NCBI GenBank assembly: GCA_026415395.1
Contig: JAOAHD010000002.1
Location: forward strand, 124,001-188,000
Direction of reading: 5' to 3'
DNA length: 64,000 bases
Origin: Candidatus Binatia bacterium
Lineage (GTDB): Bacteria > Desulfobacterota > Binatia > HRBIN30
Positions 17,587 through 55,433 of this stretch are shown in pieces. The position numbers and the translations under genes were made by a program. Position 1 is the first letter of the stretch. Every line of letters begins with the position of its first letter. The notes under the pieces were generated by a model, which saw nothing but the letters and a program-made list of their open reading frames with translations, was not told where the DNA came from and ran no database searches.

Positions 17587-19113
17587 TTACGGCCAATCCG
17601 GTGGCAAACCGATCGTGGCTTCGCGCGAGCCTTCGAGGTAGGGCTCGTTGCTCGAAGTGGAGGGAACGCCGGACCCGGGTACCGTGAAGCGGTCGATCAC
17701 GAAACCAATCACCGGAACCTCCACGCCGCGCACAATCAGATGTGCCGTATTCGTTCCGATGCTGCTGAAGCGTAGTGCAGGAATGGTGCTGAAACTCCGT
17801 CGCTCCATGCAGCGGAACGAACTGGCTCCGGAAAAGGTTTGTTCCAATTCGTTGATCACCGCATATTGCAGGGTGACTGAGGAGAATACCTGGGTTTCCA
17901 GGTTTTGCGTGCATGGGACGAGGATGAGCTCGCTGTTTGAGGTGGCAGTTTGCGCCAGCACATTGAAATGGAGCCGGTCGGGGCAAGCCTCGTAATTCAC
18001 GCCGTCGAGCGCCACGAAGCTGGTGGGCGCATCGTCGCGCAGCTTGCGGAAGGCAATGGCGGAGTAGGCGATGCGCTGCCCTGTGTCGTCGGCAATGAGG
18101 GCACGACCGGTTAACGAATTTGTCGGCGCAAAGCATTTGAGCTCGCCGTCTCCCCGGAACGGTGGGGCAATCCGCCGGCCGTTGCCGTCGAGCCCAGTGC
18201 TCACCATCCACGAAAGCGGCCGTGCTGCTGCCCCGCCGCCACCAGAAGGGGCGATGGCCTGGAAGCCGATTTCCACGCAGTTGGTTGCGGTAATGTAAAA
18301 ACAGCGCGCGGCAGGTCCCGCCGACGTGGAAGACGAGGCAATTTCAATCCGCGTATCTGTGTTCGCGGAAGCACGCACGAGCGGGAAGATCAGCACCGCT
18401 GCAGCAAGTTTTTGTGCCGGCGGGTCGCCTTGCGCCACTACCCCGAGCGGATCCACCTCGCCACGGACCCGTGTGGGACGCGGCGTCGGTGACGAAGTCG
18501 GCGTTAAGCTCGGGCGCGGGGTCCAGGTTGGTACACGCGTAAACGTCGCCGTGGGTGTACGGGTCGGCGGCGGTGTACGCGTGAGGGTCGGCGTGCTCGT
18601 CGGTGGGAACGTGGGCGTTTGCGTACGCGTCGCGCTCGGTGTTCGAGAGGCGCTAGGACTCCAAGTTGCCGAGCGCGTTGCCGTGGCCGATGGCGTTGCC
18701 GTGAACGAGCGGGTCGCAGTTGCCGACCGAGTAGCCGTATGGGTCCAAGTGCTCGTCGGGGTGCGCGTGGTTGTGGCGCTCGGTCGCGGCGTGGCCGTCG
18801 AGCTTGGCGCTGGCGAAGGCGAGAACGTTCTTGTCGGCAGTTCGGTTCGTGTATGCGTGGCTGTCGCTGGTGGACGCGGGGACCAGGTGGGTGTGTACGT
18901 GGGCCAAGGAGTATTCGTTGGTGTCCCCGTTGCTCCGACCGGAGTAGGCGAAGGAGGTAGGTCCGTGGGCGACGGACTACGGTTGGAGGTCAGCGTTGCC
19001 ACAGGGGTCGCCGTTGCCGTTGGGCGCGGTGTGGCGGGAGACACCCCGTACTGCGCGAGCAATTGGTACCAAGCGAAGAGAAAGGCGGCGAGTCCGCTAA
19101 GAAGTTCGTTCAT
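17587..19113 (-). CDS. Stalked surface protein: membrane anchor, Thr/Pro stalk, conserved ectodomain
   Basis: 508 residues in three parts: a hydrophobic N-terminus (LLSGLAAFLFAWYQLLAQY) without an obvious cleavage site, a low-complexity Thr/Pro/Ser/Ala/Arg stalk (about residues 26-214), and a C-terminal domain of about 280 residues. That domain is a paralogue of the protein encoded immediately upstream (start 20054): shared patches include DTRIEI, GDGELKCF, YEACPDRLHFNVLA, NSELILVPCTQNL and the closing ATIGLP. No function is known to me. The start codon lies 5 bp after the stop of the paralogue and has no visible ribosome-binding site, so translational coupling is likely. Location at the cell surface is inferred. 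Confidence 0.75.
   Translation of the reverse strand: MNELLSGLAAFLFAWYQLLAQYGVSPATPRPTATATPVATLTSNRSPSPTDLPPSPTPVGATGTPTNTPWPTYTPTWSPRPPATATHTRTELPTRTFSPSPAPSSTATPRPSATTTRTPTSTWTHTATRSATATRSFTATPSATATRSATWSPSASRTPSATRTQTPTFPPTSTPTLTRTPPPTRTPTATFTRVPTWTPRPSLTPTSSPTPRPTRVRGEVDPLGVVAQGDPPAQKLAAAVLIFPLVRASANTDTRIEIASSSTSAGPAARCFYITATNCVEIGFQAIAPSGGGGAAARPLSWMVSTGLDGNGRRIAPPFRGDGELKCFAPTNSLTGRALIADDTGQRIAYSAIAFRKLRDDAPTSFVALDGVNYEACPDRLHFNVLAQTATSNSELILVPCTQNLETQVFSSVTLQYAVINELEQTFSGASSFRCMERRSFSTIPALRFSSIGTNTAHLIVRGVEVPVIGFVIDRFTVPGSGVPSTSSNEPYLEGSREATIGLPPDWP
18470..19038 (-). repeat. Coding low-complexity Thr/Pro/Ser repeat (stalk)
   Basis: Degenerate short repeats of the pattern T-x-T/S-x-T-P encoded within the stalked surface protein. 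The opposite strand shows as an artefactual long frame rich in Val/Gly/Arg. Likely an extended, possibly glycosylated spacer. Confidence 0.85.
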
Positions 19114-19118
19114 GGCAG

Positions 19119-20054
19119 CTATCGCGACCGGGGCACGGAAATGGTGGCGGTCCGGCCCCCCAGGAACATGGGTTCGTTGCCCGCCAAGCCGAACGTGGAG
19201 GCATACGGGATGCCGTCAATCACTAACCCGATGAGTGGCCCGCCCACGCCCCGAACGGAGATTTGCACGACGTCCGACCCGCCGATGCTTCGCTGCAACA
19301 CGTCGGCAATCGTGCTCAAGGTGCGGCGGAAGTAACAGCGGACTTGAAACGACGTCGACACGGTTTGCCCGAGTTCGGTGGTGAGCAGGAGTTGAGCGGT
19401 AACCGCCGTGGGCGACTGGAGCACCAAATCTTGGGAACAGGGAAGCAGGATCAACTCGCTATTGCCTGCAGGAGTGTCGGCCAGCACGGTAAACAGCAAA
19501 CGATCAGGGCACTGCGCGTATTCGTTGCCATCGAGCCGCAGTACACCGGTGTACTCGCCGCCGACGAATCGTTGGAACCCGTACGCAGTGTAAGAAACGG
19601 TGGAGCCATCGAGGCCGAACACCGTGGCTCGGCCCTGCACGGTGTTGTAAAGCTCCAGCGCGGGCTCCGGTGGCACGACGGCGCACTTGAGTTCGCCGAA
19701 GCCCCAAAACGGTGGTGCTGCCGTCCCATTGACGACGTTGCTCATTCCTTCGCTGGCGAGCCAAGCGAAGGGCTGATAAGGCGTGAGCGCCAGCACGAAG
19801 CCGACTTCGTTGCACGACGGGTCGTCGCCATTGACGAAGAAGCACTCGAGTTCGATCGGCACACCACTAAGATTGACAAGTTCGATCCGCGTGTCCCGCC
19901 CCGCTCCGGCTTCTACGTACGGGAACATCAACAGGGCCGCTGGCACTCGCTGGGCAGGCGGCCCCGGAGCTGCTCCGCCGACGGCAGGAAGGTAGGTGCT
20001 GGCAGCCGTTGCCACCACCACTGCTGCCAAAAACCGACCCAACCGTGCCGTCAT
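19119..20054 (-). CDS. Secreted protein, paralogue of the stalked protein ectodomain
   Basis: 311 residues; a GGGAGGA site precedes the ATG. A signal peptide (LAAVVVATAASTYLPAVGG) leads into one domain that matches, patch by patch, the C-terminal domain of the downstream gene: AALLMFPYVEAG, DTRIELVNLSG, FWGFGELKC, CPDRLLFTVLADTPAGNSELILLPC, and closing ATISVP. Several Cys pairs (ELECFFV with DPSCNEV, LLPC) are conserved between the two copies and suggest disulfides. The shared tandem arrangement indicates duplication followed by acquisition or loss of the stalk. Biochemical role unknown; probable export to periplasm or surface. Confidence 0.75.
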   Translation of the reverse strand: MTARLGRFLAAVVVATAASTYLPAVGGAAPGPPAQRVPAALLMFPYVEAGAGRDTRIELVNLSGVPIELECFFVNGDDPSCNEVGFVLALTPYQPFAWLASEGMSNVVNGTAAPPFWGFGELKCAVVPPEPALELYNTVQGRATVFGLDGSTVSYTAYGFQRFVGGEYTGVLRLDGNEYAQCPDRLLFTVLADTPAGNSELILLPCSQDLVLQSPTAVTAQLLLTTELGQTVSTSFQVRCYFRRTLSTIADVLQRSIGGSDVVQISVRGVGGPLIGLVIDGIPYASTFGLAGNEPMFLGGRTATISVPRSR

Positions 20055-20346: not shown

Positions 20347-21198
20347 TTACTTAGCAGGAGGCGAAGGTGCGGTCTGGGCGGTGGGCCAGAAGACTTGCTC
20401 TCCGTCGATGCGAAACGAAGCAATGGCATGTTGGCCGGCGGGCGAAGTGAGCCAGAGAATCAGTTGGCGCGCTGCCTCCTGTCGGGCTGAGGGAGCATCC
20501 CCCCGTTTGGATAGGAAGATGCGGTACACGTTCCGCAGGGGTGGCTTGTTGCGTACTAAGACGCGCAAGCGTTCTCGGTTTCGGTATGCGAGGAAGGTGG
20601 CCCAGTCCGTGAGTGTGTAAGCGCGGCGTTCAGCGCTCATCATCAGTGCGGCGCCCATTCCCTGCCCGGCCTCTAAGTACCAGGGTCCGCTCGGCCGCAC
20701 CTCGGCTCGCGCCCACAGGTTCAGTTCCGCGGTGTGTGTACCCGAACGATCGCCACGCGACACGAAGGGCTGTCCTTCCGCCGCGATCGTTGCCATGGCT
20801 TTGGCGATGTCGTCCAGGCCGGTGATATGGGCAGGGTCGTTGGGCGGTCCGACGAGCACAAACTCATTTTCCATCACCACTCGTGGCTCCGCCACCACCC
20901 CTCGCGCCAGAGCTTCTTCCTCGAGCGACGGGGCATGAGTGAGCACGACGTCGGCATCGCCCCGCCCGGCCAGTTCCAGTGCCTGGCCGCTCCCGACGGG
21001 AAGTACGCGCACACGCACCCCGCTGGTGCGTTCAAACTGCGGCAAGAGGAAGGCGAGTAGGCCCGAATTTTCCACGCTGCTCGTGGTGGCGAGAAACACT
21101 TCGCGCGGTGCTGGGTGGCTTTGTCCTTGGCTGCCTGGCGTAGCCCCGAGGGCGAGAATCAGTGCGAATGGAGCAGCAGCGCGCAAGCGAAAGCTCAA
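20347..21198 (-). CDS. TupA-like (tungstate/oxyanion) periplasmic binding protein, orphan
   Basis: 283 residues from a TTG that overlaps the hydrolase stop (TTGA); a GTG 18 codons upstream is the alternative. A signal peptide (FALILALGATPGSQG) precedes a type II periplasmic binding fold: LATTSSVENSGLL, VLPVGSGQALELAGRGDADVVLTHA and FVSRGDRSGTH, all typical of tungstate-binding TupA proteins where the Thr/Ser residues bind the oxyanion. The permease and ATPase genes that normally follow (tupB, tupC) are absent, so it may share a distant transporter or act as a receptor. It is the last gene of the minus-strand run that includes the acyl synthase and histidine kinase. Confidence 0.75.
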   Translation of the reverse strand: MSFRLRAAAPFALILALGATPGSQGQSHPAPREVFLATTSSVENSGLLAFLLPQFERTSGVRVRVLPVGSGQALELAGRGDADVVLTHAPSLEEEALARGVVAEPRVVMENEFVLVGPPNDPAHITGLDDIAKAMATIAAEGQPFVSRGDRSGTHTAELNLWARAEVRPSGPWYLEAGQGMGAALMMSAERRAYTLTDWATFLAYRNRERLRVLVRNKPPLRNVYRIFLSKRGDAPSARQEAARQLILWLTSPAGQHAIASFRIDGEQVFWPTAQTAPSPPAK

Positions 21199-22082
21199 CG
21201 TTGGCTGGCTTGTTGTGCGACCCGGTGGATTGCTGCCACCATCTCGGGCCACAAGGGGCGCGGCATGTCGTGCCCCATATCCTCGAAGGCGAGAAGCTCG
21301 GCTCGTGGCAAGGCGCGAGCCGTCGCCTCGCCGGCAGCGAAGGGCACAAGTGGATCGATGCGGCCGTGGATCACCAGAGCCGGCTTATCGACTTTGCGTA
21401 GCGCCTCGGTACGGTTGCCCGACGCCAGGATGGCCGCCAACTGCCGCATGACACCGGCGGGATTGATGCCGCGATCAAATGCCCGCGCCGCCAGCTCGCG
21501 GATTTCCGCCTCGTCGAAATATTTCGGACTGCCAATGGTGCGAAAGATAAACACGCCACGCTCAATGGCTTCGTCGCGCGATGAGGGCTGCGGCGCGAGC
21601 AGCACGCTCAACGCTTCCGGCCGTGGCGGGGGCAAGGTGGGATCCCCCGTAGTAGACATGATGGAGGTGAGGCTGAGGGTCCGCTCCGGATACTCGATGG
21701 CGAAGGTTTGCGCGATCATGCCGCCCATGGAGGCGCCGACGATGTGGGCCCGCGGAATTCCCAACGCATCGAGCAAACCCGCAGTGTCGGCAGCCATATC
21801 GGAGAGTATGTAGGGAGCGTCGACCGGTTGACCTGCTGCCGCAGCAGCCATCAGGCCCATTACGTTGGGCAAGCCCAGGTGGTCGAGCCAAGTCGAGCGA
21901 CCCACGTCGCGGTTGTCGAAGCGAATGACCCGGTAGCCGCGCTCGACCAGCATCTGGCAGAAGTCGTCGCGCCACAGGATCATTTGCGCGCCCAGGCCCA
22001 TGATGAGCACCATTGGTTCGCCTTGTTCGGGGCCTAGGATTTCGTACTCGAGCTCGATGCCGTTCGTGCGTACCCGTGCCAT
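21195..22082 (-). CDS. Alpha/beta hydrolase
   Basis: 295 residues from the ATG preceded by GAGAAGAG (an ATG seven codons upstream is weaker). A complete alpha/beta hydrolase: oxyanion region IMGLGAQMILW, FDNRDVGRST, nucleophile elbow VGASMGGM (Ser), acid HGRIDPLVP and histidine EDMGHDMP. No signal peptide. The sequence resembles a large bacterial group that includes methylesterases of the RdmC type, but substrates are mostly unassigned. It starts 54 bp after the histidine kinase stop and overlaps the binding-protein start, consistent with one operon. If the locus makes an acylated signal, this enzyme could hydrolyse it; that is speculation from context. Confidence 0.85.
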   Translation of the reverse strand: MARVRTNGIELEYEILGPEQGEPMVLIMGLGAQMILWRDDFCQMLVERGYRVIRFDNRDVGRSTWLDHLGLPNVMGLMAAAAAGQPVDAPYILSDMAADTAGLLDALGIPRAHIVGASMGGMIAQTFAIEYPERTLSLTSIMSTTGDPTLPPPRPEALSVLLAPQPSSRDEAIERGVFIFRTIGSPKYFDEAEIRELAARAFDRGINPAGVMRQLAAILASGNRTEALRKVDKPALVIHGRIDPLVPFAAGEATARALPRAELLAFEDMGHDMPRPLWPEMVAAIHRVAQQASQR

Positions 22083-22136
22083 GATCTCTTCTCGAAAGCG
22101 CATTGCGCGTGAAGCGTCAACTCGGGGTCTGTGCCT

Positions 22137-24365
22137 TTAAGACTTGCGTCGCGTTTGTCGAGCTAACCGTAAAACCTCGGGGGGCAACTTGATATTGCCC
22201 ACAAGAGCCCGCACATGGGCTTCCTCTTCTGGGGTCAGTTTTGGCTCCGGAGGTTCGCCAGCCTCGATCAAGCGGGCGTGGATTTCCGCAATGAACTCAG
22301 GGAAGCCGGCGGCGAAGATTACGCCCCGCCCCTCAGGCTCGCGGATCTCGAGATAGCCTCCGTGGTCTTCGGCAATTTGCAGGCAAAGGGCAAGGCCGAG
22401 TCCGGTGCCGTCCGGTTTGGTGGTGAAAAATGGCTGAAACACTTTTTCGCGTAGTTCCTTGGGTAGGCCGGGTCCCGTATCCCGCACCCGGACCTCCCCG
22501 TAGCTACGCCCGTTTTTTGTCTCTCGTGCAACAATAAACGCCACTGTGGATCCACTGGGCGAAGCCTCGATCGCGTTGAGCCCCAAGTTGAACAACACTT
22601 GCCGAACGCGGTCGGCATCGGCAAACACGGTCACGGGTTCCGGCGGGGCATCAGCTTGGAGAAGCACGCGCACCTGCTTGGCGGCAGGTTTGAGCAAGTC
22701 AGCCACGTCGGTAACACACTTGTGTAAATCTACCGCGCCAAATCGGGGCGGCGTGGCCCGGGTGGCGTGCAGCAGCTCGTCGAGCAAGCGTTGCACCCGC
22801 TCAAGTTCGCTGATGATCACCGGTGCGCTGTTTTCGATCATCTCCGGCGAGCTCTTATGTTCGCGAGCCAACTGCATGAATGTGCTGAAGGCAACAAGTG
22901 GGTTGCGCACCTCGTGGACGATGCCGGCAACCATCGTGCCGATGGCACTGAGGCGTTCGACCCGTTCGAGCGCTTGCCGCGCAAACGCGGCCTGCTCGTG
23001 CAACTGGATATTGTCCAGCGCCAGGGCAAGTTCATCGCTCAGTCGTTCCAGAGCCTCGAGTTCCGTCAACATGTACCAGTCTCGGCCCTCTTTGAGGCCG
23101 AGGGCAAGAAATCCCAGCAACTGGCGATTCGCTTTGATCGGAACACACGCGGTCCAATGCAGCCGTTGCATGAGCTCGCCCACTTCGCGCGCGCGCGGGC
23201 GCTTGGACTCCGCCAACTCGCTTTGCAGCAAGGAAAGGGAGGCCTCTTCGAGTTCGGCTACTAGAGCACTGCTGAAAGGGAAGGTTGTCTCTGCTGGTTC
23301 CTGGCCGACATGATGGGCCAAACGCAAAACCCCAGCTTCCGGATGGCGTGTGAAGATGGCCACTGCGGGTGGTCTAAATACCGCCCAGAGGCCCCGCGCA
23401 ACTATGTCGAGCAGGCGTTCACGATTTTGTTCCTGCAGCACCGCCTTGCGCAGCATTTCCAAGGAGGCGTGCTGTTCAACCTTGTAAGGGAAGGCGCGCT
23501 TTGCGAACTCCTGTTCGAGCCGCCGCTGAAGGGCGGGGAACACTAGGGCGACGAACACCAACGACAAGAAGATCCCCGACGACACGTCGATTTGCGCGTG
23601 CCCGAGGGTGTAAATTTGCAACACCACGAGCAAGATGTAGGCGGGCACGATGGTGACGAGCCCGGCAACAAAGGCGGTGCCGAGGCGCGAGATCCAAATT
23701 TCCACGTCGAGCAGCCGATGCCGGACGATCGCGTAGGCGATGATCCCCGCCCACACGGCACTACCCAGGTTGCCAAGAGGATAGATGGGGATCTCGTAAG
23801 CGGGGAATAAGTTCGTGATCCCGAGCGGCAGCGCCACCGCCCCACTGATGAGCCAGAACCTAGCAACGAGGCGCTCTCGGGCATTTGTGGCACCTCTTAA
23901 ATCAGCCGCGCACAAGACTAGAGCTGAAGCAAAGCACAGTGCGACGTTGGCGGTGTACACATGGTAGAGCGGCCCTGTCAAAGAATAGCAGCCCAAGTGA
24001 TGATACTTCAACCCGCGAACGACCAAGCCGAAGGGATTGGCCGCAACCAGCACTACACAGCCCAGCACGTTGAGAGAGACCAGCGACTTCCAGAAGAGCG
24101 GTCTGCTGCGGAGGTCGTTCACGAAGGATAGGATGGCCGTTGGTAAAATGAGCCCTCCAACCCGGGAGATGTTCAAAAGCTCTGTAGAGGAGGACTCGCA
24201 TGGCAACGTGGAAAGGAGAAAGAAATGCAGATTCCACGCGCCGACCAGTAGGGCCATGAACGCAAATCCCTTAGCGGTCTTGTCCCGGCGCTGACTTACT
24301 ACCAGCACCGCGAGGCAAAGTGAGCTGCCGGCAGCCAGAAGGGTAACTACCGCCAGGAAAGTCAT
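22137..24365 (-). CDS. Membrane sensor histidine kinase (7TM, GAF, HisKA, HATPase)
   Basis: 742 residues. Residues 1 to about 270 are largely hydrophobic with about seven to nine transmembrane helices (7TM histidine-kinase sensor type), followed by a GAF domain (about 310-455), a dimerisation helix with the phospho-acceptor His484 in IVHEVRNPL, and an ATPase domain with the N box (NLGLNAIEAS), DTGPGLP, and GTGLGLALCLQI. The layout resembles PrsK kinases of PEP-CTERM systems but keeps a normal HisKA box. No response regulator gene adjoins it, so the partner is elsewhere. Its ATG overlaps the stop of the acyl synthase gene (ATGA), implying that synthase and sensor are made together. Confidence 0.88.
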   Translation of the reverse strand: MTFLAVVTLLAAGSSLCLAVLVVSQRRDKTAKGFAFMALLVGAWNLHFFLLSTLPCESSSTELLNISRVGGLILPTAILSFVNDLRSRPLFWKSLVSLNVLGCVVLVAANPFGLVVRGLKYHHLGCYSLTGPLYHVYTANVALCFASALVLCAADLRGATNARERLVARFWLISGAVALPLGITNLFPAYEIPIYPLGNLGSAVWAGIIAYAIVRHRLLDVEIWISRLGTAFVAGLVTIVPAYILLVVLQIYTLGHAQIDVSSGIFLSLVFVALVFPALQRRLEQEFAKRAFPYKVEQHASLEMLRKAVLQEQNRERLLDIVARGLWAVFRPPAVAIFTRHPEAGVLRLAHHVGQEPAETTFPFSSALVAELEEASLSLLQSELAESKRPRAREVGELMQRLHWTACVPIKANRQLLGFLALGLKEGRDWYMLTELEALERLSDELALALDNIQLHEQAAFARQALERVERLSAIGTMVAGIVHEVRNPLVAFSTFMQLAREHKSSPEMIENSAPVIISELERVQRLLDELLHATRATPPRFGAVDLHKCVTDVADLLKPAAKQVRVLLQADAPPEPVTVFADADRVRQVLFNLGLNAIEASPSGSTVAFIVARETKNGRSYGEVRVRDTGPGLPKELREKVFQPFFTTKPDGTGLGLALCLQIAEDHGGYLEIREPEGRGVIFAAGFPEFIAEIHARLIEAGEPPEPKLTPEEEAHVRALVGNIKLPPEVLRLARQTRRKS

Positions 24366-24979
24366 TTCCGCGCCCTCGCATCGATCACTGGGGTTGCTGC
24401 CTTCCGTGGTGCACCCCCACTGAGCGCTGCGGTAGGCTCATTGCACACTCGATCGTGCAGCGGGAGCCACATTGTGTAGACTGGCCCCCACTCTGGATCG
24501 AGGAAGTCTAGCGACTGGAGTCGTAGAAAACCGACCGCTCGATAGAGTTCTGCCACGGGTCGGCTAGGTGTGCGTAAATAGATAGCCGCGGCCGAGTGCC
24601 TCGTTGCGACCTCGAGTAATTTCGCGTAAAGCAGCCGGAAGAGTTCGCCAGAGCGCGCTCTTAATCTCCGAAAGTCCCTTCGCACCCAAAACCCGCCGGC
24701 CTGCAAGGCACGGTTTTCCAACGGTGGCGATCCCACAAAGCGAAACATTTCAAGCGGCAACGGTGATGGGCCGATGAGCCGAATCGCCGCCACCAGCTCG
24801 GTACCGGCAAATCCGGCAATGTGCAACGCCGTACGGTCGGCAAAGTCGATTCCCACTCGGCCAAGGTCCTGCAGGTAAATCTCTCGCCTGCTCGCCACGG
24901 TAAGCAAACGCTCCCTGGCATCGGCCACCTTGACGTAGACTCTGTCATCTACTTTGACATTGCCAAGGGTATAGGTCAC
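24362..24979 (-). CDS. GNAT-fold N-acyl amino acid/autoinducer synthase-like acyltransferase
   Basis: 205 residues with a GTG start. The pattern follows FeeM-type and LuxI-like synthases and the PEP-CTERM-associated acyltransferases: an early RREIYLQDLGR segment, DRTALHIAGFAG then LVAAIRLIG, LEMFRFVG, and GGFWVRRDFRRLRARSGEL where the acyl/pantetheine site lies, ending with ELYRAVGFLRL. Such enzymes move an acyl chain from acyl carrier protein to an amino acid or related amine. A dedicated ACP gene lies divergently 119 bp away and the histidine kinase is coupled downstream by ATGA. Whether the acceptor is an amino acid, a lactone precursor or another amine cannot be told from sequence. Confidence 0.72.
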   Translation of the reverse strand: MTYTLGNVKVDDRVYVKVADARERLLTVASRREIYLQDLGRVGIDFADRTALHIAGFAGTELVAAIRLIGPSPLPLEMFRFVGSPPLENRALQAGGFWVRRDFRRLRARSGELFRLLYAKLLEVATRHSAAAIYLRTPSRPVAELYRAVGFLRLQSLDFLDPEWGPVYTMWLPLHDRVCNEPTAALSGGAPRKAATPVIDARARK

Positions 24980-24990
24980 CTGGGCTGGTG

Positions 24991-25051
24991 CTCCAATGTA
25001 GGTGGGTCTCCAATGACCTTCGTAATGTGACTGGATTGGGGGTACCAGTCA
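24991..25051. promoter_or_regulatory. Candidate operator in the acyl-locus divergent promoter region
   Basis: Between the divergent starts at 24979 (minus) and 25099 (plus). A perfect inverted repeat TGACTGG (25028-25034) and CCAGTCA (25045-25051) is separated by 10 bp, and CTCCAATG occurs twice as a direct repeat (24991-24998 and 25008-25015). The symmetry fits a dimeric regulator controlling both transcripts. No regulator gene for it is visible in the window. Confidence 0.45.
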
Positions 25052-25098
25052 AGCGTGACGAAACAAGGTCTATGCCGGTTGAGGCAATGGGAGGAAAG

Positions 25099-25386
25099 AT
25101 GACTTCGCGAACCGAGATCGGGACGGATTTGACGCCTGCTGCCGTAGCCGAGCGAGTCCGACAACTGGTCCACGAAATCACCGGTATTCCCCTCGAGCAA
25201 ATTACCGAGGATGCCAGCTTCGACACCACGCTGGTGATGGAATCCGTGCAGTTAGTGGAGTTGCAGGTGGCGCTCGAGGAGGAATTTCAGACCGAGCTCG
25301 ATCCGTTGTACATGATCGAGCTCAACCGGTTTGGCGACATCGTGGATTACATTTATCGCCGGGCGCGCGGCGAGGAGGTGCCGTAA
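25099..25386 (+). CDS. Acyl carrier protein
   Basis: 95 residues from the ATG that follows GGGAGGAAAG; two upstream ATGs lack such a site. A four-helix ACP pattern is clear: VRQLVHEITGIPLEQITEDASF, then MESVQLVELQVALEEEF, where Ser49 is the phosphopantetheine site (ESV instead of the common DSL), and a last helix FGDIVDYIYRR. The acidic helix 2 is typical of fatty acid and polyketide carriers. Its stop overlaps the acyl-CoA dehydrogenase start by one base (TAATG), and the ketoacyl synthase follows, so it is likely a dedicated carrier for this locus rather than the housekeeping ACP. Confidence 0.88.
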   Translation: MTSRTEIGTDLTPAAVAERVRQLVHEITGIPLEQITEDASFDTTLVMESVQLVELQVALEEEFQTELDPLYMIELNRFGDIVDYIYRRARGEEVP

Positions 25387-26522
25387 TGGCCCTGTTTACT
25401 GAGGACCACGAGCAGTTCCGCAAGCAAACGCGGGCGCTCATCGAGACCGAGCTCGCACCAAGGGCGGCAGAGTTCGACGATCCCGAGACCGTCCGCTCGT
25501 GGTTTCCGCAGTTCGGTCGATGGGGCTGGCTCGGGCTTTCCGTCGCTAAGGAGTATGGCGGACGCGGCGGCGACTTTGGCCACGATGTGGTGCTCGCCGA
25601 GGAAATTCCGCGCGCCCGCACGATGGGCTTGGCTTTGAGCATGGCCGCGCAGTCTCAATTTGTGATTCCATACCTCATTACCCATGGCACGGAACAACAG
25701 CGCAGAGAGATTGTTGGTCCGTTGGTTCGCGGGGAAAAGGTTGCTGCTCTGGCGGCCACCGAGCCCACTGGCGGTACCGACCTCGTGCGTGCGGTTCGCT
25801 GTACCGCACGCGACGATGGTGATTTCTGGGTGATTAACGGCGAGAAAAAATTCACCACTAACGGCCCGATTGCCGACTACGTCCTGGCGCTGATCCGCAC
25901 GGCTTCGGCCTCGAGCACCAGCAGCTTTTCGCTGATTTTGATCCCGACGGATACCCCCGGATTTGAAGCAACGCGACTGCAAACGATGGGGATGAAGTCG
26001 TCGCCCACCGGCTGGCTCAAGTTTCGAGACTGTCGCGTGCCGAAATCCTTGACCATCGGCAAGCCCAATCTCGGGTTTTTGTATTTGATGAACGGGTTGC
26101 AGCGCGAACGGCTCATTGCGGCGGTGAGTGCCGTGGCCCTGGCGGATTTGGTGCTGCAGGAGACCATCGCCCGCGTCCGTGCACGGATGATTTATGAGCG
26201 GCCGCTGGCAGAACTACAAAGCGTGCGTCATCGGATTGCAGAGATGGCGGCAGAAATTGAAGCGAACCGACGTTTTGTCCGCTCGGTGGCCGAGTCGTAC
26301 CGCGATGGCCGCGTGGAAGGCAAAGAGATTTGCATGATCAAGTACCACGTGATGGAGAGCGTGCAGCGCATTCTTGGGCAGTGTTTGCAGTTGCATGGCG
26401 GAGAGGGGTATCTCGAGGAAAATTGGATTTCGCGCGCTTTTCGCGATGCCAGAGTGTTTACGATTGGTGGCGGTGTGTCGGAAGCAATGAAAGATCTGGT
26501 TGCAGGTTACCTCCGACTGTGA
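25386..26522 (+). CDS. Acyl-CoA dehydrogenase-like flavoprotein linked to ACP
   Basis: 378 residues with the normal three-part acyl-CoA dehydrogenase architecture: alpha helical N-terminus (WGWLGLSVAKEYGGRGGDF), beta domain with AATEPTGGTDLV and FWVINGEKKFTTNG, and C-terminal helices with GQCLQLHGGEGYLEENW. The usual catalytic Glu of the YEGTSE motif is replaced: the end reads TIGGGVSEAM, so the base may lie elsewhere or the enzyme may act on an unusual substrate. Encoded between an ACP and a ketoacyl synthase with no spacing, it probably desaturates or oxidises an ACP-bound chain, as FAD-dependent dehydrogenases do in some natural-product clusters. The substrate is inferred. Confidence 0.82.
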   Translation: MALFTEDHEQFRKQTRALIETELAPRAAEFDDPETVRSWFPQFGRWGWLGLSVAKEYGGRGGDFGHDVVLAEEIPRARTMGLALSMAAQSQFVIPYLITHGTEQQRREIVGPLVRGEKVAALAATEPTGGTDLVRAVRCTARDDGDFWVINGEKKFTTNGPIADYVLALIRTASASSTSSFSLILIPTDTPGFEATRLQTMGMKSSPTGWLKFRDCRVPKSLTIGKPNLGFLYLMNGLQRERLIAAVSAVALADLVLQETIARVRARMIYERPLAELQSVRHRIAEMAAEIEANRRFVRSVAESYRDGRVEGKEICMIKYHVMESVQRILGQCLQLHGGEGYLEENWISRAFRDARVFTIGGGVSEAMKDLVAGYLRL

Positions 26523-26528
26523 TGGGGC

Positions 26529-26536
26529 AAGGAGAG
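26529..26536 (+). promoter_or_regulatory. Ribosome-binding site that fixes a TTG start
   Basis: AAGGAGAG just after the dehydrogenase stop and two bases before TTG at 26539. Starting there places the ketoacyl synthase catalytic residues at exactly 163, 303 and 340, the numbering of E. coli FabF. Confidence 0.7.
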
Positions 26537-26538
26537 CT

Positions 26539-27780
26539 TTGAATCGTCGCGTCGTCATCACCGGCATCGGCTTTGTGAGCCCGGTTGGCTCGCAGTTGGA
26601 GTCCTTTTGGTCGGCTTTGATCGAAGGTCGCTCTGGCCTGCGCGTGATCGATCGCTTCGATCCATCGCCGTTTAACTGCCAACTGGGTGGGCAGGTGGAC
26701 GATGCTGAACTGCAAGCGCTCGATCCGCGTTACCTCCGCACCGTGACGCACGCGAGTCAGCTCGGGCTGTTGGCCGTAGAGCGAGCGTTGCAAGACGCCC
26801 AGTTACCGCCCGCCTCGTGGGAGAATCCCGGGGCTGTGGCGCTGCTCGTCGGTTGCGCGCTCGGTGGGCTTCGCAGTGGCGAGCAGCAATATGCGGTGAT
26901 CATGGAACGCGGCGTGCGGCGCGTGAACCCATTTCTGGCCAACGGCTCCCTCCCATTTGCCACTGCCGCCGAGCTGGCGGCAGTGGCGCGGGCGCAAGGG
27001 CCGCAACTGACCATTACCACCGGGTGCACGGCAAGCACCCAGGCTATCGCGCTCGGGCAACAGTTGATTGCGGCAGGCGAGGCGGAGGTGGTGATTGCCG
27101 GCGGCACGGAAAGCCCACTGACCGTATTCGTACTTGCTTCCATGGGCCGCACGATGGAGTTGGCGCGCGACAGCAGCGATCCACAACGAGCATCGCGCCC
27201 CTTCGATCGCCGCCACAATGGGATGGTGCTCAGCGAAGGCGCTTGCATGTTGGTGCTCGAGCCGCGCGAGCGTGCTTTGGCTCGCGGTGCTCACGTGTAT
27301 GCCGAGGTGCTCGGCGGTACGAGCTCGTGCGATGCTCGAGGCTTGTTTCCGACGGACCCTAGCGGCGAAGTGGGCGCTGCGGCGATTTGCGCTTTGCTGC
27401 GTCGATGCCGGCTCGGCCCCGGCAATGTGCAGTGGCTTTGCGCACATGCAAACGCGTCTCCAACGTTCGACAGCAAGGAAACCCGCGTGGCTAAGGCGGC
27501 CTTTGGCGAGTGGGCGGCAAAGTTGCCGGTGAGCTCGATCAAGGCAGTGCTCGGTCATCCGTTCGGCGCCTCAGGAGCATTTCAAACAGTGGCCGCCTGC
27601 TTAGCGCTGCGGCATCAGTTAATTCCTCCAACCCACTTCTTGGAGCAGCCAGCAGACGACTGCGACCTCGACTACGTGCCCAACGTCGCACGACCGGCAC
27701 AACTCGAGCACGTGTTGGTGAGTAGCTACGGTTACGGCGGCGCCAATGCTTATTTGCTCGTACGCCACCCTGAAGCTTGA
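26539..27780 (+). CDS. Beta-ketoacyl-ACP synthase II (FabF-like)
   Basis: 413 residues from TTG. The Cys-His-His triad is complete: Cys163 in TTGCTASTQA, His303 in CAHANASPTFDSKE, His340 in VLGHPFGASG, the same positions as in FabF. It opens with RRVVITGIGFVSPVG and ends with SSYGYGGANAYLLV. It condenses malonyl-ACP with an acyl chain in the cytoplasm. No fabG, fabZ or fabD is adjacent, so reduction and dehydration of its product must use other enzymes. As the third gene after the ACP and dehydrogenase, it likely extends the chain for the divergent acyl synthase rather than serving bulk fatty acid synthesis. Confidence 0.9.
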   Translation: MNRRVVITGIGFVSPVGSQLESFWSALIEGRSGLRVIDRFDPSPFNCQLGGQVDDAELQALDPRYLRTVTHASQLGLLAVERALQDAQLPPASWENPGAVALLVGCALGGLRSGEQQYAVIMERGVRRVNPFLANGSLPFATAAELAAVARAQGPQLTITTGCTASTQAIALGQQLIAAGEAEVVIAGGTESPLTVFVLASMGRTMELARDSSDPQRASRPFDRRHNGMVLSEGACMLVLEPRERALARGAHVYAEVLGGTSSCDARGLFPTDPSGEVGAAAICALLRRCRLGPGNVQWLCAHANASPTFDSKETRVAKAAFGEWAAKLPVSSIKAVLGHPFGASGAFQTVAACLALRHQLIPPTHFLEQPADDCDLDYVPNVARPAQLEHVLVSSYGYGGANAYLLVRHPEA

Positions 27781-33367: not shown

Positions 33368-34120
33368 CTACCAGTGCATGCGCGAACGGAGAGAACGGGT
33401 TTGCGCCCGGCTCAGTTCAAGTTCGGAGCCGCGCTGGTCCTTCATCACCAACTTGTAGCGGCCGCCGAACCACGGCACGATTGCCTTGACGTGCTTGAGG
33501 TTCACTAAGCGCGACTTGTGTGCGCGGAAGAACACGTTGGGGTCGAGTCGTTCTTCTAGTTCTCGCAGGGTAAAGTTGGTCATGAAGCGATCGCCGTCGA
33601 CGTACGCGAACACGATCCGGTCTTCGACCTCGAACCAGAGAATTTGTTCGGTGGACAAGACCACGATGTTGCGCCCCCTTTGCGCCGGCACTTGTTGGAT
33701 GTACCGCCGCTCGCGGGCTTCCAGCGCGGCGAGAATCTCTTCGATCGCGGGTGGTGCGGTTTGGTTCACGAGTCGGTCGCGGACACGCCGCATGGTTTCC
33801 GCCAAGCGCTCTTTGGAAATGGGCTTGAGCAAGTAGTCTACGGCACAGACTTCGAACGCGCGAATCGCGTATTGGTCGTAGGCAGTGGCGAACACCACTT
33901 GCGGGCGGTGCCGCACTGCTTGCAGCACGCCGAAACCATCCACGCCCGGCATTTGCACGTCGAGGAACACAACGTCGGGCTTCAAGCTGTCGATAGCCTG
34001 GATTGCTTGGGGGCCGTTTTTGGCGGTGCCGACGATTTCCACCTCTGCGAAGTCGCGCAAAAAAGTTTGCAACCGTTCCCGTGCTAAACGCTCATCGTCG
34101 ACAATGAGGGTCCGAATCAT
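33368..34120 (-). CDS. LytTR-family response regulator
   Basis: 250 residues. Receiver domain (about 1-120) with the acidic pair in LIVDDERLARE, the phospho-acceptor Asp in DVVFLDVQMPG, and Lys in LLKPISKERL. The C-terminal LytTR DNA-binding domain (about 145-250) has VEDRIVFAYVDGDRF, FRAHKSRLVNLKHVKAI and ends in SRAQTRSLRSRMHW. Its ATG overlaps the stop of the sensor kinase (ATGA), a tight two-component pair. Target genes are unknown; the surrounding exported-protein genes are candidates by position only. Confidence 0.93.
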   Translation of the reverse strand: MIRTLIVDDERLARERLQTFLRDFAEVEIVGTAKNGPQAIQAIDSLKPDVVFLDVQMPGVDGFGVLQAVRHRPQVVFATAYDQYAIRAFEVCAVDYLLKPISKERLAETMRRVRDRLVNQTAPPAIEEILAALEARERRYIQQVPAQRGRNIVVLSTEQILWFEVEDRIVFAYVDGDRFMTNFTLRELEERLDPNVFFRAHKSRLVNLKHVKAIVPWFGGRYKLVMKDQRGSELELSRAQTRSLRSRMHW

Positions 34121-35367
34121 CGCGCTGCCTCATGATGGCTTTGCAAAGGAAAGCGCAGCCTCACGGTCGTGCCTTGGCCTGCGACCGAATCGATCTCCGG
34201 GGCGTGCCGTTCTCCGTAAAGTCTTACCAAGCGATCCCGCACACTGCGGAGCCCGAGCCCGCGTTCATACAATCGGCCATCGTCGGTGATCCCCACGCCC
34301 GTGTCTTCGACTTCGATCTGGAGCTCGCGCTCGCGCACACGCGCACGGATCACCAGCGTTCCCCCGTCGATTTTTTTGGAAATGCCGTGTTTCACTGCGT
34401 TTTCCACGAGCGGTTGCAAAATGAGGCTCGGCACCGTCTGGCGCCGTGCGGCAGGTTCGACGTCCCATTCCACGGTGAGCTCGTCGCCGAAACGAGCCGT
34501 TTCGATTTCCAAGTACGCGTGGGCAAAGCGTAACTCCTCGTCCAACGGCACGAACTCCGTACCCGAGCGCGAAAGTAAATACCGAAAGACCTCGGCCAAG
34601 CGCTCCACGCAGCGCTCGGCTTGATCCGGATGGATGCGGATCAATTGTGCGATGGAGTTCAGGCTGTTGAAAAAAAAGTGCGGGTGGATTTGTGCCCGTA
34701 GTGCGGCGAGCTGGGCTGAGGCGGCTGCGTCTTCCAATGCGCGAGCGCGTGCTTGCATAACCAGGATGCGCCACCAATGGAGGTTAAAGCCCACGACGCA
34801 GAGAATGGCGGTAGGCACGATGGGGATGAGGAAATAGATCACGGGCGCGTGTCGCAGTGCACTCGCCGGAATGGTGATCGTACGATCTGGCCCGTTATAG
34901 GGATTCAAGATGGAGTGTCCGCCAAAGAGAAAGGAATTGGCTTCGACAGTGAGGAACGATAGCGCCGCAATGGCAACCGCGGAGGTGAGAATTTGTGCGG
35001 CCAATCGCAGTGGAAAGCGCAGGTTGGCAAAACGCGGTAACACCCAAATCCACAACCCGAGAATGACCGTGCATGACAACAGTGTGGCACCAAGGAAAAA
35101 GAAAAACGCTCGTGGTGAGCCCCAGAGGTATAAGTGGACCAGCGCGAGATGGAGGCCAATGGCGAGGCCGGTGAGATACAAAAAGCTTACTTGCAAAACT
35201 TGCGAAGGTGCAGAACGTGGCGGATCCGCCCCTAGTACTGTTGCAGGCGAGGGCCGCGGGGCTGACGGGCTCCGCAGCCGGGGCTCAAAAAGCGACTCCT
35301 TTGCGTGAGTTTGATCCGGCGTGCGCGCCAATGGCGGCCCTTGTCCCTTGACGACGGAAATTGACAT
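34117..35367 (-). CDS. LytS/YehU-type sensor histidine kinase
   Basis: 416 residues (the open frame continues upstream, but the alignment and the position of the divergent promoter favour this ATG). Four hydrophobic helices (about residues 57-195) form the membrane sensor. The kinase part is of the His_kinase family (LytS type): ALRAQIHPHFFFNSLNSIAQLI contains the phospho-acceptor His, followed by FVPLDEELRFAHAYLEIETARFG, LILQPLVENAVKHGI (N box) and a GLGLRSVRDRL ATP region. It transfers phosphate to the overlapping LytTR regulator. No ligand domain outside the membrane is evident. Confidence 0.9.
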   Translation of the reverse strand: MSISVVKGQGPPLARTPDQTHAKESLFEPRLRSPSAPRPSPATVLGADPPRSAPSQVLQVSFLYLTGLAIGLHLALVHLYLWGSPRAFFFFLGATLLSCTVILGLWIWVLPRFANLRFPLRLAAQILTSAVAIAALSFLTVEANSFLFGGHSILNPYNGPDRTITIPASALRHAPVIYFLIPIVPTAILCVVGFNLHWWRILVMQARARALEDAAASAQLAALRAQIHPHFFFNSLNSIAQLIRIHPDQAERCVERLAEVFRYLLSRSGTEFVPLDEELRFAHAYLEIETARFGDELTVEWDVEPAARRQTVPSLILQPLVENAVKHGISKKIDGGTLVIRARVRERELQIEVEDTGVGITDDGRLYERGLGLRSVRDRLVRLYGERHAPEIDSVAGQGTTVRLRFPLQSHHEAAR

Positions 35368-35388
35368 AACTGCGCTCCGGCGCATACT
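35361..35388 (+). promoter_or_regulatory. Candidate sigma-70 promoter giving a near-leaderless transcript
   Basis: TTGACA at 35361-35366 and CATACT at 35383-35388 are spaced by 16 bp. Transcription would begin near 35394-35396, two to four bases before the ATG at 35398, and there is no ribosome-binding site in between. The -35 box overlaps the kinase start codon on the other strand. Confidence 0.45.
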
Positions 35389-35397
35389 AGTGCAGCT

Positions 35398-35766
35398 ATG
35401 AGTGCAAAAAAAGCAGGTTGGTTTGCAGGCTTCTTCGTGACGCTTTTGGGTGTCTCCGCGTTGGTGGCCGTTGCCCAGGAAGAGGTCAAACTGCAAGGCG
35501 AGGTCGTGGATCTGGCTTGCTACATGGCTAAGGGCGCGAAAGGAAGTGGCCACAAGAGTTGCGCACAGATGTGCGCGAAGAAGGGGGTGCCCCTGGGACT
35601 GCTCACCGATGCTGGTGAGCTGTACCTTTTGGTAGATGACCACAACAACGAGGCACCCTACAACGAGGTGAAGAAGCTTGCCGGTGAACGTGCCGAGGTG
35701 ACGGGAAAGAAGTACCTCCGGAACAATTTGCCGGGCATCGTTGTCGAAGGCGTGAAGGGGCTGTAG
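35398..35766 (+). CDS. Small exported Cys/His-containing protein
   Basis: 122 residues with a signal peptide (FAGFFVTLLGVSALVAVAQ). The mature part contains VVDLACYMAKG and GHKSCAQMCAKKG: three Cys and a His in an arrangement that could bind metal or form disulfides. The rest (LYLLVDDHNNEAPYNEVKKLAGERAEVTGKKYLR) reads like a small beta fold related to OB-type domains that follow an added ligand. I recognise no established function. It is divergent from the kinase gene by 30 bp and followed by the tandem CX4CH lipoprotein 25 bp on, so those two may be co-expressed and could be regulated by the two-component pair. Confidence 0.65.
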   Translation: MSAKKAGWFAGFFVTLLGVSALVAVAQEEVKLQGEVVDLACYMAKGAKGSGHKSCAQMCAKKGVPLGLLTDAGELYLLVDDHNNEAPYNEVKKLAGERAEVTGKKYLRNNLPGIVVEGVKGL

Positions 35767-35791
35767 CGCCCGCGACGGCCGCACACTTACA

Positions 35792-36646
35792 GTGCGCAAA
35801 TTGTTGTTTCAGAGGGCTGCCCGAGCCGCGGGGTTTTGGTTTGTCCTCGCCTCGCTGGGCTGTGCTGGTGATGGGCCGCCGCCAACGGCGTCTACGGGAA
35901 ACACGTTTGCTGAGTTGCAAGCGAGCGTGTTCACTCGATACTGCGCGGTTGGGCCGTGCCATTCGGCGGGTGTAGGCGCTGGCGGGTTGGTTCTCGAAGG
36001 ACCAAGTGCGTATGACCAGTTGGTGAACGCTCCGCCGGAAAATTCTGCGGCGCTTGAGGTGGGATGGCAGCGTGTCGTTCCTGGCGTGCCCGACCGGAGC
36101 TTTTTGTGGATCAAGCTTACGGGGCCGGGTCTAGGCCAGGGAAGTCGCATGCCTCTCGGGGCGCCCCCGCTGCCCGAGCAAGAACTTCGGCGGATCGAGG
36201 AGTGGATCTTGGCGGGCGCACCGCGCGGCGGGGAAGCCGTTGGTGGAGTTGGAACGCCAACTCCGTCACCCTCGCCTTCGCCGACACCGATCGCAACCCT
36301 GAATCCGCCGAGTGCCTCCTTTGCCGCACTGGAGAGCCAAGTGCTCCGGCCTCGCTGTGCGGTAGCGTTTTGCCACGATGCGACGACTCGAGCCGGCGGG
36401 TTGGATTTGACCGCGGCATACGACGACTTGGTGGGTGTGCCGCCGACGAACGTTGCAGCGCGCGATGCGGGCTGGCTGCGCGTTACGCCGGGGCAGCCGC
36501 AAGCAAGTTTCCTACTGGTGAAACTCACGCTGAGTGCCTTCGACGAGCGTTGGGGGAGCCCCATGCCGCTGGTCGGCGCGCGGCTCGAACCGCTATGGAT
36601 TGAGGCGCTAACGGCATGGATCGAGGCAGGCGCGCCCAATAATTAG
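35792..36646 (+). CDS. Lipoprotein with tandem CX4CH cytochrome-like domains
   Basis: 284 residues from GTG. The signal peptide ends in a lipobox (LASLGC), so the protein is probably lipid-anchored. Two homologous domains of about 110 residues (45-155 and 175-283) are joined by a Pro/Ser/Thr linker (TPTPSPSPSPTP). Each has a CAVxxCH motif (CAVGPCH, CAVAFCH), GG(L)xL, a Tyr-Asp-x-Leu-Val patch, a Gly-Trp-x-Arg-Val-x-Pro-Gly patch and ends in an alpha-helical W-I-x-A-G-A-P element. The layout resembles the cytochrome-like domains of planctomycetes and myxobacteria, but the heme motif has four instead of two residues between the Cys. Heme binding is therefore possible, not certain. Confidence 0.7.
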   Translation: MRKLLFQRAARAAGFWFVLASLGCAGDGPPPTASTGNTFAELQASVFTRYCAVGPCHSAGVGAGGLVLEGPSAYDQLVNAPPENSAALEVGWQRVVPGVPDRSFLWIKLTGPGLGQGSRMPLGAPPLPEQELRRIEEWILAGAPRGGEAVGGVGTPTPSPSPSPTPIATLNPPSASFAALESQVLRPRCAVAFCHDATTRAGGLDLTAAYDDLVGVPPTNVAARDAGWLRVTPGQPQASFLLVKLTLSAFDERWGSPMPLVGARLEPLWIEALTAWIEAGAPNN

Positions 36647-54585: not shown

Positions 54586-54668
54586 AGGGAGAGTCCGGCA
54601 GTTTATGGATTCGCCTCAGAGAAGTCTACGGAATTGCTGTTCGGGGGAGGCCGTTGTACAGGCGGAGC

Positions 54669-55433
54669 ATGAAACGGCTTGAGGGCGAAGTGGCATTGGT
54701 GACGGGTGGCGCGAGTGGCATCGGGCGCGCCTCTGCGGAAAAATTGGCCGCTCTGGGAGCCGCCGTTGCGATTGCTGACCGCAACGCAGAAGGGGCGGAG
54801 CAGGTGGCAAATTTGTTGCGCGAAGCCGGAAGCCCAGCGCTGGCCGTGGCCATGGATGTGACGAGTCGCTCTGCGGTGCAGGAAGGGGTGGAACAGGTTC
54901 GGAGCGCCTTCGGACCAATCTCGATCCTCGTCAGCGCCGCTGGTTGGGACCGGATGGAGCCCTTCACGCAGAACTCTCCGGAACTTTGGGAGCAGCTTGT
55001 TGCCATCAACCTCATGGGTCCGATTTTTGTGGCTCGCGCGGTCATCGACGACATGATCCATGCAGAGCGTGGCCGGCTCGTGTTTGTCAGTTCCGACGCT
55101 GCCCGAGTGGGCAGTAGTGGCGAAGCGGTGTATGCTGCCGCCAAGGGTGGAGTGATTTCCTTTGCCAAGACGTTGGCCCGCGAGCTTGCACGCTATCGGA
55201 TCACCGTGAATGTTGTCTGCCCCGGGCCGACAGAAACCCGTTTGCTGGAGGAGGTGACGCGCACGGAAGCAGGCGCCAAAATTATCGCGGCGATCACCAG
55301 AGCGGTGCCACTGGGCCGATTGGCAAAGCCTGAGGAGGTTGCCGCTGCGATTGCGTTTTTTGCCTCGCCAGACGCGAGTTTCGTTACCGGACAAGTCTTA
55401 AGCGTGAGCGGTGGCCTCACCATGGTTGGGTGA
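54669..55433 (+). CDS. Short-chain dehydrogenase, BadH-like
   Basis: 254 residues (the earlier TTG is not favoured). TGGASGIGRA near residue 13 binds NAD(P); catalytic Ser in VSSDAARVGSSG and the YAAAKGG Tyr/Lys pair are present. Its sequence is very close in pattern to BadH, 2-hydroxycyclohexanecarboxyl-CoA dehydrogenase: SDAARVGSSGEAVYAAAKGG, ITVNVVCPGPTET and the last residues TGQVLSVSGGLTM. That reaction belongs to alicyclic carboxylate degradation. No other bad genes are adjacent, so involvement in cyclohexane or aromatic breakdown is plausible but not demonstrated; general FabG-like activity remains possible. Confidence 0.8.
   Translation: MKRLEGEVALVTGGASGIGRASAEKLAALGAAVAIADRNAEGAEQVANLLREAGSPALAVAMDVTSRSAVQEGVEQVRSAFGPISILVSAAGWDRMEPFTQNSPELWEQLVAINLMGPIFVARAVIDDMIHAERGRLVFVSSDAARVGSSGEAVYAAAKGGVISFAKTLARELARYRITVNVVCPGPTETRLLEEVTRTEAGAKIIAAITRAVPLGRLAKPEEVAAAIAFFASPDASFVTGQVLSVSGGLTMVG

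Follow-up and report, generated by a model that had tools for sequence, protein, structure and literature searches.

We analysed a 64,000-nucleotide stretch of contig JAOAHD010000002.1 (the window), from the 3.69-Mb, 25-contig genome assembly of a Candidatus Binatia bacterium (genome G000), and focused on a divergent seven-gene locus at positions 20347–27780. The minus strand carries a GNAT protein and a sensor histidine kinase, followed by a hydrolase and a binding protein, while the plus strand carries an acyl carrier protein (ACP), an acyl-CoA dehydrogenase and a ketoacyl synthase (KAS). The features, with the support for each, are as follows.

24362–24979, minus strand: GNAT acyltransferase with a predicted FeeM/LuxI fold and an apparently remodelled active-site motif (Q93-A-G-G-F-W; R136-T137); orthologue family matches, predicted fold
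22137–24365, minus strand: sensor histidine kinase with seven transmembrane (7TM) helices (two strands between the fourth and the fifth), two extra helices, and GAF, HisKA and HATPase domains; Pfam, alignment, model
25099–25386, plus strand: ACP, likely ATG start, reading frame open from 24988; PF00550, E 1e-10
25386–26522, plus strand: acyl-CoA/ACP dehydrogenase of the long-chain acyl-CoA dehydrogenase (LCAD)/isovaleryl type; Pfam, Glu alignment
26539–27780, plus strand: FabF-type ketoacyl-ACP synthase; Cys-His-His and Lys in register with a solved FabF
21195–22103, minus strand: alpha/beta hydrolase, macrolide-esterase/ORF17-like; family and structure-database matches
20347–21252, minus strand, likely start TTG 21198: TupA-like periplasmic (tungstate/oxyanion) binding protein; solved structure 3lr1, E 1.1e-57

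The seven open reading frames (ORFs) lie where a preliminary description of this DNA had placed them, and all the overlaps and gaps that it gave are confirmed on the sequence. Specifically, the GNAT and kinase genes share an ATGA overlap at 24362–24365, the ACP and dehydrogenase genes a TAATG overlap at 25384–25388, and the hydrolase and binding-protein genes a TTGA overlap at 21195–21198. The KAS gene starts at TTG 26539, with AGGAGAG upstream, after a 16-nt gap; the hydrolase gap after the kinase is 54 nt from ATG 22082 and 33 nt from ATG 22103. Pfam supports the kinase (HisKA_7TM, HisKA, HATPase), the hydrolase, the binding protein, the ACP, the dehydrogenase and the KAS, with the GAF domain of the kinase scoring slightly below its cut-off.

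The three plus-strand genes bear out the earlier claim of an ACP beside chain-building enzymes. ACP orthologues align only from residue 41–60 of the long ORF onward, so the start near 25099 is probable, and a Ser occupies the place of the pantetheine Ser (M-E-S-V). In the dehydrogenase, the Glu of a QRERL segment aligns with the Glu of LCAD, which we take to be the catalytic position, and there is no Glu at the medium-chain or short-chain dehydrogenase site. The KAS aligns with FabF 6okg at Cys-His-His and Lys, residues presumed to have their FabF roles, and scores 365.3 bits against TIGR03150, below the cut-off of 493.75. On these alignments, both enzymes appear to keep their active-site residues.

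The histidine kinase has intact, conserved H-, N- and G-boxes. A structural model of its 7TM region, with a predicted local distance difference test score (pLDDT) of 81, contains seven helices, of which 4 and 5 are separated by a pair of strands, and then two more helices. Among the 50 fold-search matches listed, none has E ≤ 0.001; the best are class C G-protein-coupled receptors (GPCRs), with E just above 0.001 and a TM-score below 0.5, a likeness that we read as a probable shared arrangement and not as family membership. The PrsK model TIGR02916 matches residues 186–686 at 140.7 bits, short of its curated cut-off of 300. The C-terminal tail of the kinase (window 22137–22205, LVGNIKLPPEVLRLARQTR) is also conserved, with the proteins of G008 and G010 ending in a shorter but similar LPLRYGRMAKL, and is a possible docking motif.

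Fold and active-site motif of the GNAT

The window GNAT matches no Pfam or NCBIfam family at E 0.001, and gives no match to the FeeM family PF21926 even at a maximum E of 10; two same-genus orthologues likewise have no family match. Among seven tested orthologues, five match PF13444 at E < 0.001, three of them above its cut-off, and two pass the 27-bit cut-off of PF21926 (G008, 33.9; G009, 29.4). The identity of the window protein rests on these orthologue matches together with its predicted fold. The FeeM/LuxI-type fold that had been proposed from the sequence is supported by a structural model (mean pLDDT 72.5, built from six sequences), for which FeeM (2G0B) ranks second in Foldseek, with E 3.8e-7. 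VIA-align superimposes the model on FeeM with Z 15.8 and a root-mean-square deviation of 2.9 over 160 residues, a length among the greatest for the upper-ranked matches. In addition, a GNAT profile finds the acyl homoserine lactone (AHL) synthases TofI (1.6e-5) and MesI (0.0045). The LuxI family PF00765 gives no match in the window genome, nor did the positive controls.

Alignment of the eight complete GNATs of the order HRBIN30 shows that D45, D48, R67, Y146 and F151 are invariant; we take these to include counterparts of the conserved D45/D48/R68-type residues of AHL synthases, in presumed EsaI numbering. Q93 of the window protein aligns with the Glu of the TofI E-L-S-R-F motif and with the Glu present in all 11 relatives aligned from outside the order, a position that we equate, provisionally, with FeeM Glu95, in agreement with the residue ranges of the VIA-align comparison. 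E-x-[STN]-R-[FL] is kept in all 11 of these relatives, which come from other Binatia families and Omnitrophota, and all six tested pass the FeeM cut-off. Within the order, the Glu is kept in one of eight GNATs, that of G008 (E-I-S-R-F), in the same gene order. Four others (G000, G001, G002, G010) have Q-x-G-G-[FL]-W and, together with it, R-T on a later strand. As judged from these alignments, the window GNAT appears to be a remodelled relative of FeeM and LuxI, and it is not filed as a FeeM synthase because the catalytic Glu is replaced.

Recurrence of the locus within and beyond the order

Conservation of the gene order was examined in 15 genomes of HRBIN30-type Binatia. The kinase is present in 10 of the 15, and a GNAT lies beside it in all 10, a recurrence of the core that points to a module beyond chance and upholds the gene-order conservation at issue. 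Both genes are complete in G000, G001, G002, G003, G008, G009, G010 and G012, and in these eight intact cases the spacing, with chosen starts, lies between an overlap of 4 nt and a gap of 16 nt. The GNAT and kinase genes are therefore closely coupled in 8/8 complete cases, which supports their being made together. In G004 the GNAT is cut by a contig end, and in G007 both frames are broken: GNAT and kinase matches are scattered over frames (L157:3484–6155) beside an intact ACP and dehydrogenase, a pattern that could reflect either sequencing error or decay of one half.

The acyl half is more variable. In 8/10 genomes (not G004 or G012) the next gene beyond the GNAT is the ACP, which in G009 is on the GNAT's own strand. 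A dehydrogenase is at the cluster in 6/10, that of G001 being a fragment at the contig start with its remainder on another contig, and one is also found in the detached half of G004. The KAS shares a contig with the kinase in 7/10, lies at the matching contig break in G001, is 43 kb away in G012 and is on another contig in G004, where the detached half has its ACP mid-contig with no GNAT beside it. The two halves are therefore apart, yet both kept, in two of the 10 genomes (G004, G012) and together in the rest, counting G001 across its contig break; the refuting condition set beforehand, that related genomes routinely separate them, thus has a mixed outcome.

The KAS also tracks the kinase. 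KAS proteins 50–100% identical to that of the window occur in 11/15 genomes, other listed FabF-like genes reaching 34–39%. KAS and kinase occur together in 10 genomes, KAS without kinase in one (G011, as a fragment at a contig end), and neither a distinct KAS nor the kinase was found in G005, G006, G013 and G014; a one-sided hypergeometric calculation by hand gives 11/3003 = 0.004 for this co-presence, with relatedness ignored. The genomes without them belong to two families (f1 and f4), which makes more than one event of joint loss or gain probable.

Two members of the order have further genes beside the kinase. In G004, the gene immediately after the 7TM kinase encodes a sigma-54 activator that has HisKA_7TM at its N terminus (L048:3052–5442), a likely one-component partner with the same sensor type. 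In G009, an AMP-binding enzyme of acyl-activating type lies directly downstream of the kinase (L015:3341–5026) and could load the ACP.

Across the class, the order GNAT profile matches 24/148 genomes at 1e-5 and the kinase profile 30/148 at 1e-120; in the sampled phylum, the GNAT profile matches 2/395 genomes at 1e-12, one of them the window's own, with at most eight candidates per genome scored. We examined 16 of the 20 kinase-bearing class genomes outside the order (all except G037, G110, G119 and G136). In five of them (G021, G034, G047, G054, G104) the kinase has a divergent FeeM-type GNAT gene as its neighbour and in four (G021, G043, G131, G132) a KAS gene, so that either is present in 8/16. 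A scan of named genomes gave 35 loci, four of them assigned to the order; among the other 31, four (L066, L069, L074, L075) have a KAS no more than 6 kb from such a kinase. All these are raw counts of adjacency. A wider link between such kinases and acyl metabolism is possible.

Individual loci show several arrangements. In G021, a single stretch (L138:6851–14304) holds a GNAT, a 7TM kinase, a KAS and a second related kinase. PrsK-like 7TM kinases adjoin or lie near FabF-like KAS genes in L069, L074, L075 and L066, and in L139, L142 and L145; they span another Binatia family, a deltaproteobacterial metagenome-assembled genome, one further bacterium and Omnitrophota. In the Omnitrophota locus L071, the gene immediately after a 7TM ORF that lacks a kinase encodes an ACP.

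The remaining two genes of the locus are genus-level neighbours: in the neighbourhoods examined outside the window's genus, neither turned up. The hydrolase is present in 3/3 genomes of the genus, is about 90% identical in G001 and G002, and is nearest to ORF17 (8pzg) and macrolide esterases. The preliminary description suggested that it may remove the signal; as it was seen in the genus alone, a general part in the system is not supported. The binding protein, present in 2/3 genus genomes (G000, G002), had been offered as a possible acyl sensor, a role that we reject given its TupA-like match to 3lr1; it scores 160.2 bits against the TupA equivalog NF041772, below the cut-off of 400. Further out, at window 17587–20054, are two adjacent proteins that match no Pfam family, are about 38–40% alike over about 280 residues and are 78–92% conserved within the genus; one has a long Thr/Pro-rich stretch.

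Possible roles of the module

An acyl-ACP-dependent synthase joined with a sensor is well supported as a module. For its working, we give about an even chance to a conserved two-part arrangement in which an acyl line feeds the GNAT and the co-made kinase senses the product or the state of the pathway. The ACP, the dehydrogenase where present and the dedicated FabF-type KAS would supply a special acyl chain on their own ACP, and the GNAT would take this ACP-borne chain and join it to an acceptor. The 7TM-GAF kinase, co-translated with the GNAT, would react to the product, or to how far the pathway is charged, and would adjust gene expression through an unlinked response regulator. The gene content, coupling, conservation and co-presence, the predicted fold, and the aligned active-site residues of KAS and dehydrogenase are observed, while the ACP's role as acyl donor, the acylation reaction, the acceptor, the product and its sensing are what we infer. 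Reading the module as one that autoregulates an acyl product is safer than committing to cell-to-cell signalling.

Several observations weigh against this arrangement. Ordinary GNATs do as well as FeeM when folds are compared, which makes the fold by itself unspecific, and in the profile search they nearly match TofI (1q2y, 2.4e-5; another, 1e-4). The FeeM/LuxI Glu position holds Q in G000, G001, G002 and G010, Y in G003 and L in G009 and G012, and in the FeeM-type enzyme Nas354 changing the equivalent Glu (Glu103) abolished activity, according to the available text of PMC4897644. No acyl-CoA dehydrogenase was found beside the cluster in G009, G010 or G012, and G012 has neither ACP nor dehydrogenase in the two stretches examined, around its GNAT and its KAS. 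The five genomes of the order counted as lacking the kinase are those where none of the seven candidates scored per genome reached 1e-120; outside the order, 8 of the 16 class genomes have neither GNAT nor KAS near the kinase, two of them at contig ends. The annotated ORFs beside the window kinase include no response regulator, the nearest pair lying at 33–36 kb, and nine intergenic stretches contain no sigma-54-like promoter site above threshold. Finally, the partial distance correlation between GNAT and 7TM region is borderline (r 0.37, permutation p 0.0502, eight taxa, leaving out G007 with its broken frames and G004 with its cut GNAT).

The locus might instead serve an envelope-lipid pathway, its product being a membrane or exported lipid, perhaps carried by MMPL, with the kinase sensing the state of the envelope and no signalling involved. 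An MMPL gene beside the KAS in G003, G007, G008 and G012, and an MMPL-like ORF end there in G004, read from translation, would fit, as would the surface activity of a FeeM-type enzyme's N-acyl amino acid (available text of PMC4897644) and the position of the GNAT TyzA near mmpL9 (accessible part of PMC10404671). However, G011, G013 and G014, in which no kinase was found, have full-length MMPL orthologues too (62–77% identity), and another lies elsewhere in G000, so that the link may be positional; the tight GNAT–kinase coupling also speaks for a closer tie than general envelope sensing. We consider this pathway unlikely, though a serious contender. MMPL as a fixed part of the module was rejected, since orthologues exist without the module.

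The GNAT could also be a regulatory protein, no longer a synthase, that would bind an acyl ligand or acyl-ACP and pass this on to the kinase, a reading that we hold to be improbable. It would account for the loss of the catalytic-Glu position in 7/8 order GNATs, for the coupling to the kinase in every complete case, and for fast divergence: within the genus the GNAT is 36.7–37.9% identical to the window protein, versus 81–84% for the KAS, 84–90% for the ACP and 90–91% for the hydrolase (77% for the dehydrogenase). It is the least conserved of the window ORFs taken as genes, 41 of 46 ORFs having a match in G001; the sole ORF below it (54603–55394, 35.0% in G001) was judged non-coding from its translation, and of the 29 of 46 matched in G002, four lower matches (24.9–29.8%) were taken as paralogues because their neighbourhood lies off the G002 contig compared. 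Nevertheless, the five residues invariant in 8/8, the coordinated new motif shared by four GNATs, which suggests an active site that is changed and not dead, and the E-I-S-R-F of G008 in the same gene order all argue for an enzyme.

A full quorum-type system, with a released product sensed by the kinase (or the binding protein) and destroyed by the hydrolase, is distinctly improbable. Synthase–receptor coupling, a fast-evolving synthase and the AHL-synthase-type residues of the GNAT are what it would lead one to expect, but the binding protein is TupA-like, and both it and the hydrolase were seen in the genus alone. Furthermore, the sensor domain of the kinase (53–58% identity within the genus, against 76–80% for the kinase domain) diverges no more than that of the single control, a LytS-type kinase of the window compared with G001 (58% against 83%), and so offers nothing receptor-specific that would point to quorum sensing. 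A comparison of the outer with the inner halves of the 7TM helices likewise shows no significant difference in divergence (six pairs). Quorum-style co-divergence of the receptor was rejected, as the control kinase, helix-half and partial distance tests give no special receptor signature. A LytS/LytTR-type kinase and regulator pair is encoded at window 33368–35799, with 66% and 88% identity in G001.

A bolder form of the two-part arrangement would be an acyl-signal circuit of a new type, in which dedicated ACP, KAS and dehydrogenase serve a remodelled LuxI/FeeM synthase, and a GPCR-like 7TM kinase detects the species-specific product of that synthase; this proposal is tentative, with a small but real chance of being right. 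If the kinase does read the product of its partner synthase, that product would be a concrete ligand candidate for the class of 7TM kinases that includes PrsK. In some of the genomes examined from Binatia and other phyla, kinases of this class adjoin KAS or FeeM-type GNAT genes, and acyl products would then be the stimulus of HisKA_7TM/PrsK-like kinases. The locus would represent a compact acyl circuit from an uncultured phylum, and the remodelled active site may yield compounds of a class that FeeM and LuxI are not known to make.

Comparison with known systems

The Binatota survey (PMC8262859) names the order HRBin30, and the available portion of its main text makes no mention of 'quorum', 'N-acyl' or 'histidine kinase'. 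Among the literature matches listed (titles and abstract openings, a coverage that leaves out most subscription papers), none describes this gene set. The parts of the module do have counterparts in several described systems.

FeeM N-acyl amino acid synthases (PF21926) share with the window the fold and an ACP next door, whereas in the window GNAT a Q replaces the Glu and no Pfam family matches. FeeM-type synthases are reported to be linked to PEP-CTERM/exosortase systems (Craig et al. 2011, as cited in the accessible text of PMC4897644 and PMC11072679). The window kinase is PrsK-like but falls below the curated cut-off, and no PEP-CTERM domain was found in the window genome, where the positive controls were silent too. 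Two exosortase-family matches lie in short open frames outside the window (G000:C7:183441–183869 and G000:C16:37728–38186). Like the kinase of the PrsK/PrsR pair (TIGR02916/TIGR02915), the window kinase is membrane-bound, but it scores below 300 bits and has no adjacent PrsR partner; the PrsR model has 28 matches in the window genome, none above its cut-off. The stimulus of PrsK was called obscure in 2006 (PMC1569441, as far as its text is available). The tyz cluster of Mycobacterium tuberculosis has a FeeM/BjaI-like GNAT, TyzA, near the MMPL gene mmpL9; it makes acyl-oxazolones, and the available part of PMC10404671 does not mention a kinase, an ACP or a KAS.

A LuxI AHL synthase with its receptor resembles the locus in having a GNAT synthase beside a sensor, and in the profile matches to TofI and MesI. 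It differs in that the window sensor is a membrane kinase and not LuxR, that the ACP, KAS and dehydrogenase are adjacent, and that E-x-S-R is not kept. In the diffusible signal factor (DSF)/RpfC system, an unsaturated acyl signal is sensed by a membrane histidine kinase; the likeness lies in this combination, although RpfF is a crotonase and not a GNAT. Taken together, the module pairs a putative synthase of the N-acyl amino acid synthase/LuxI type with a PrsK-like kinase.

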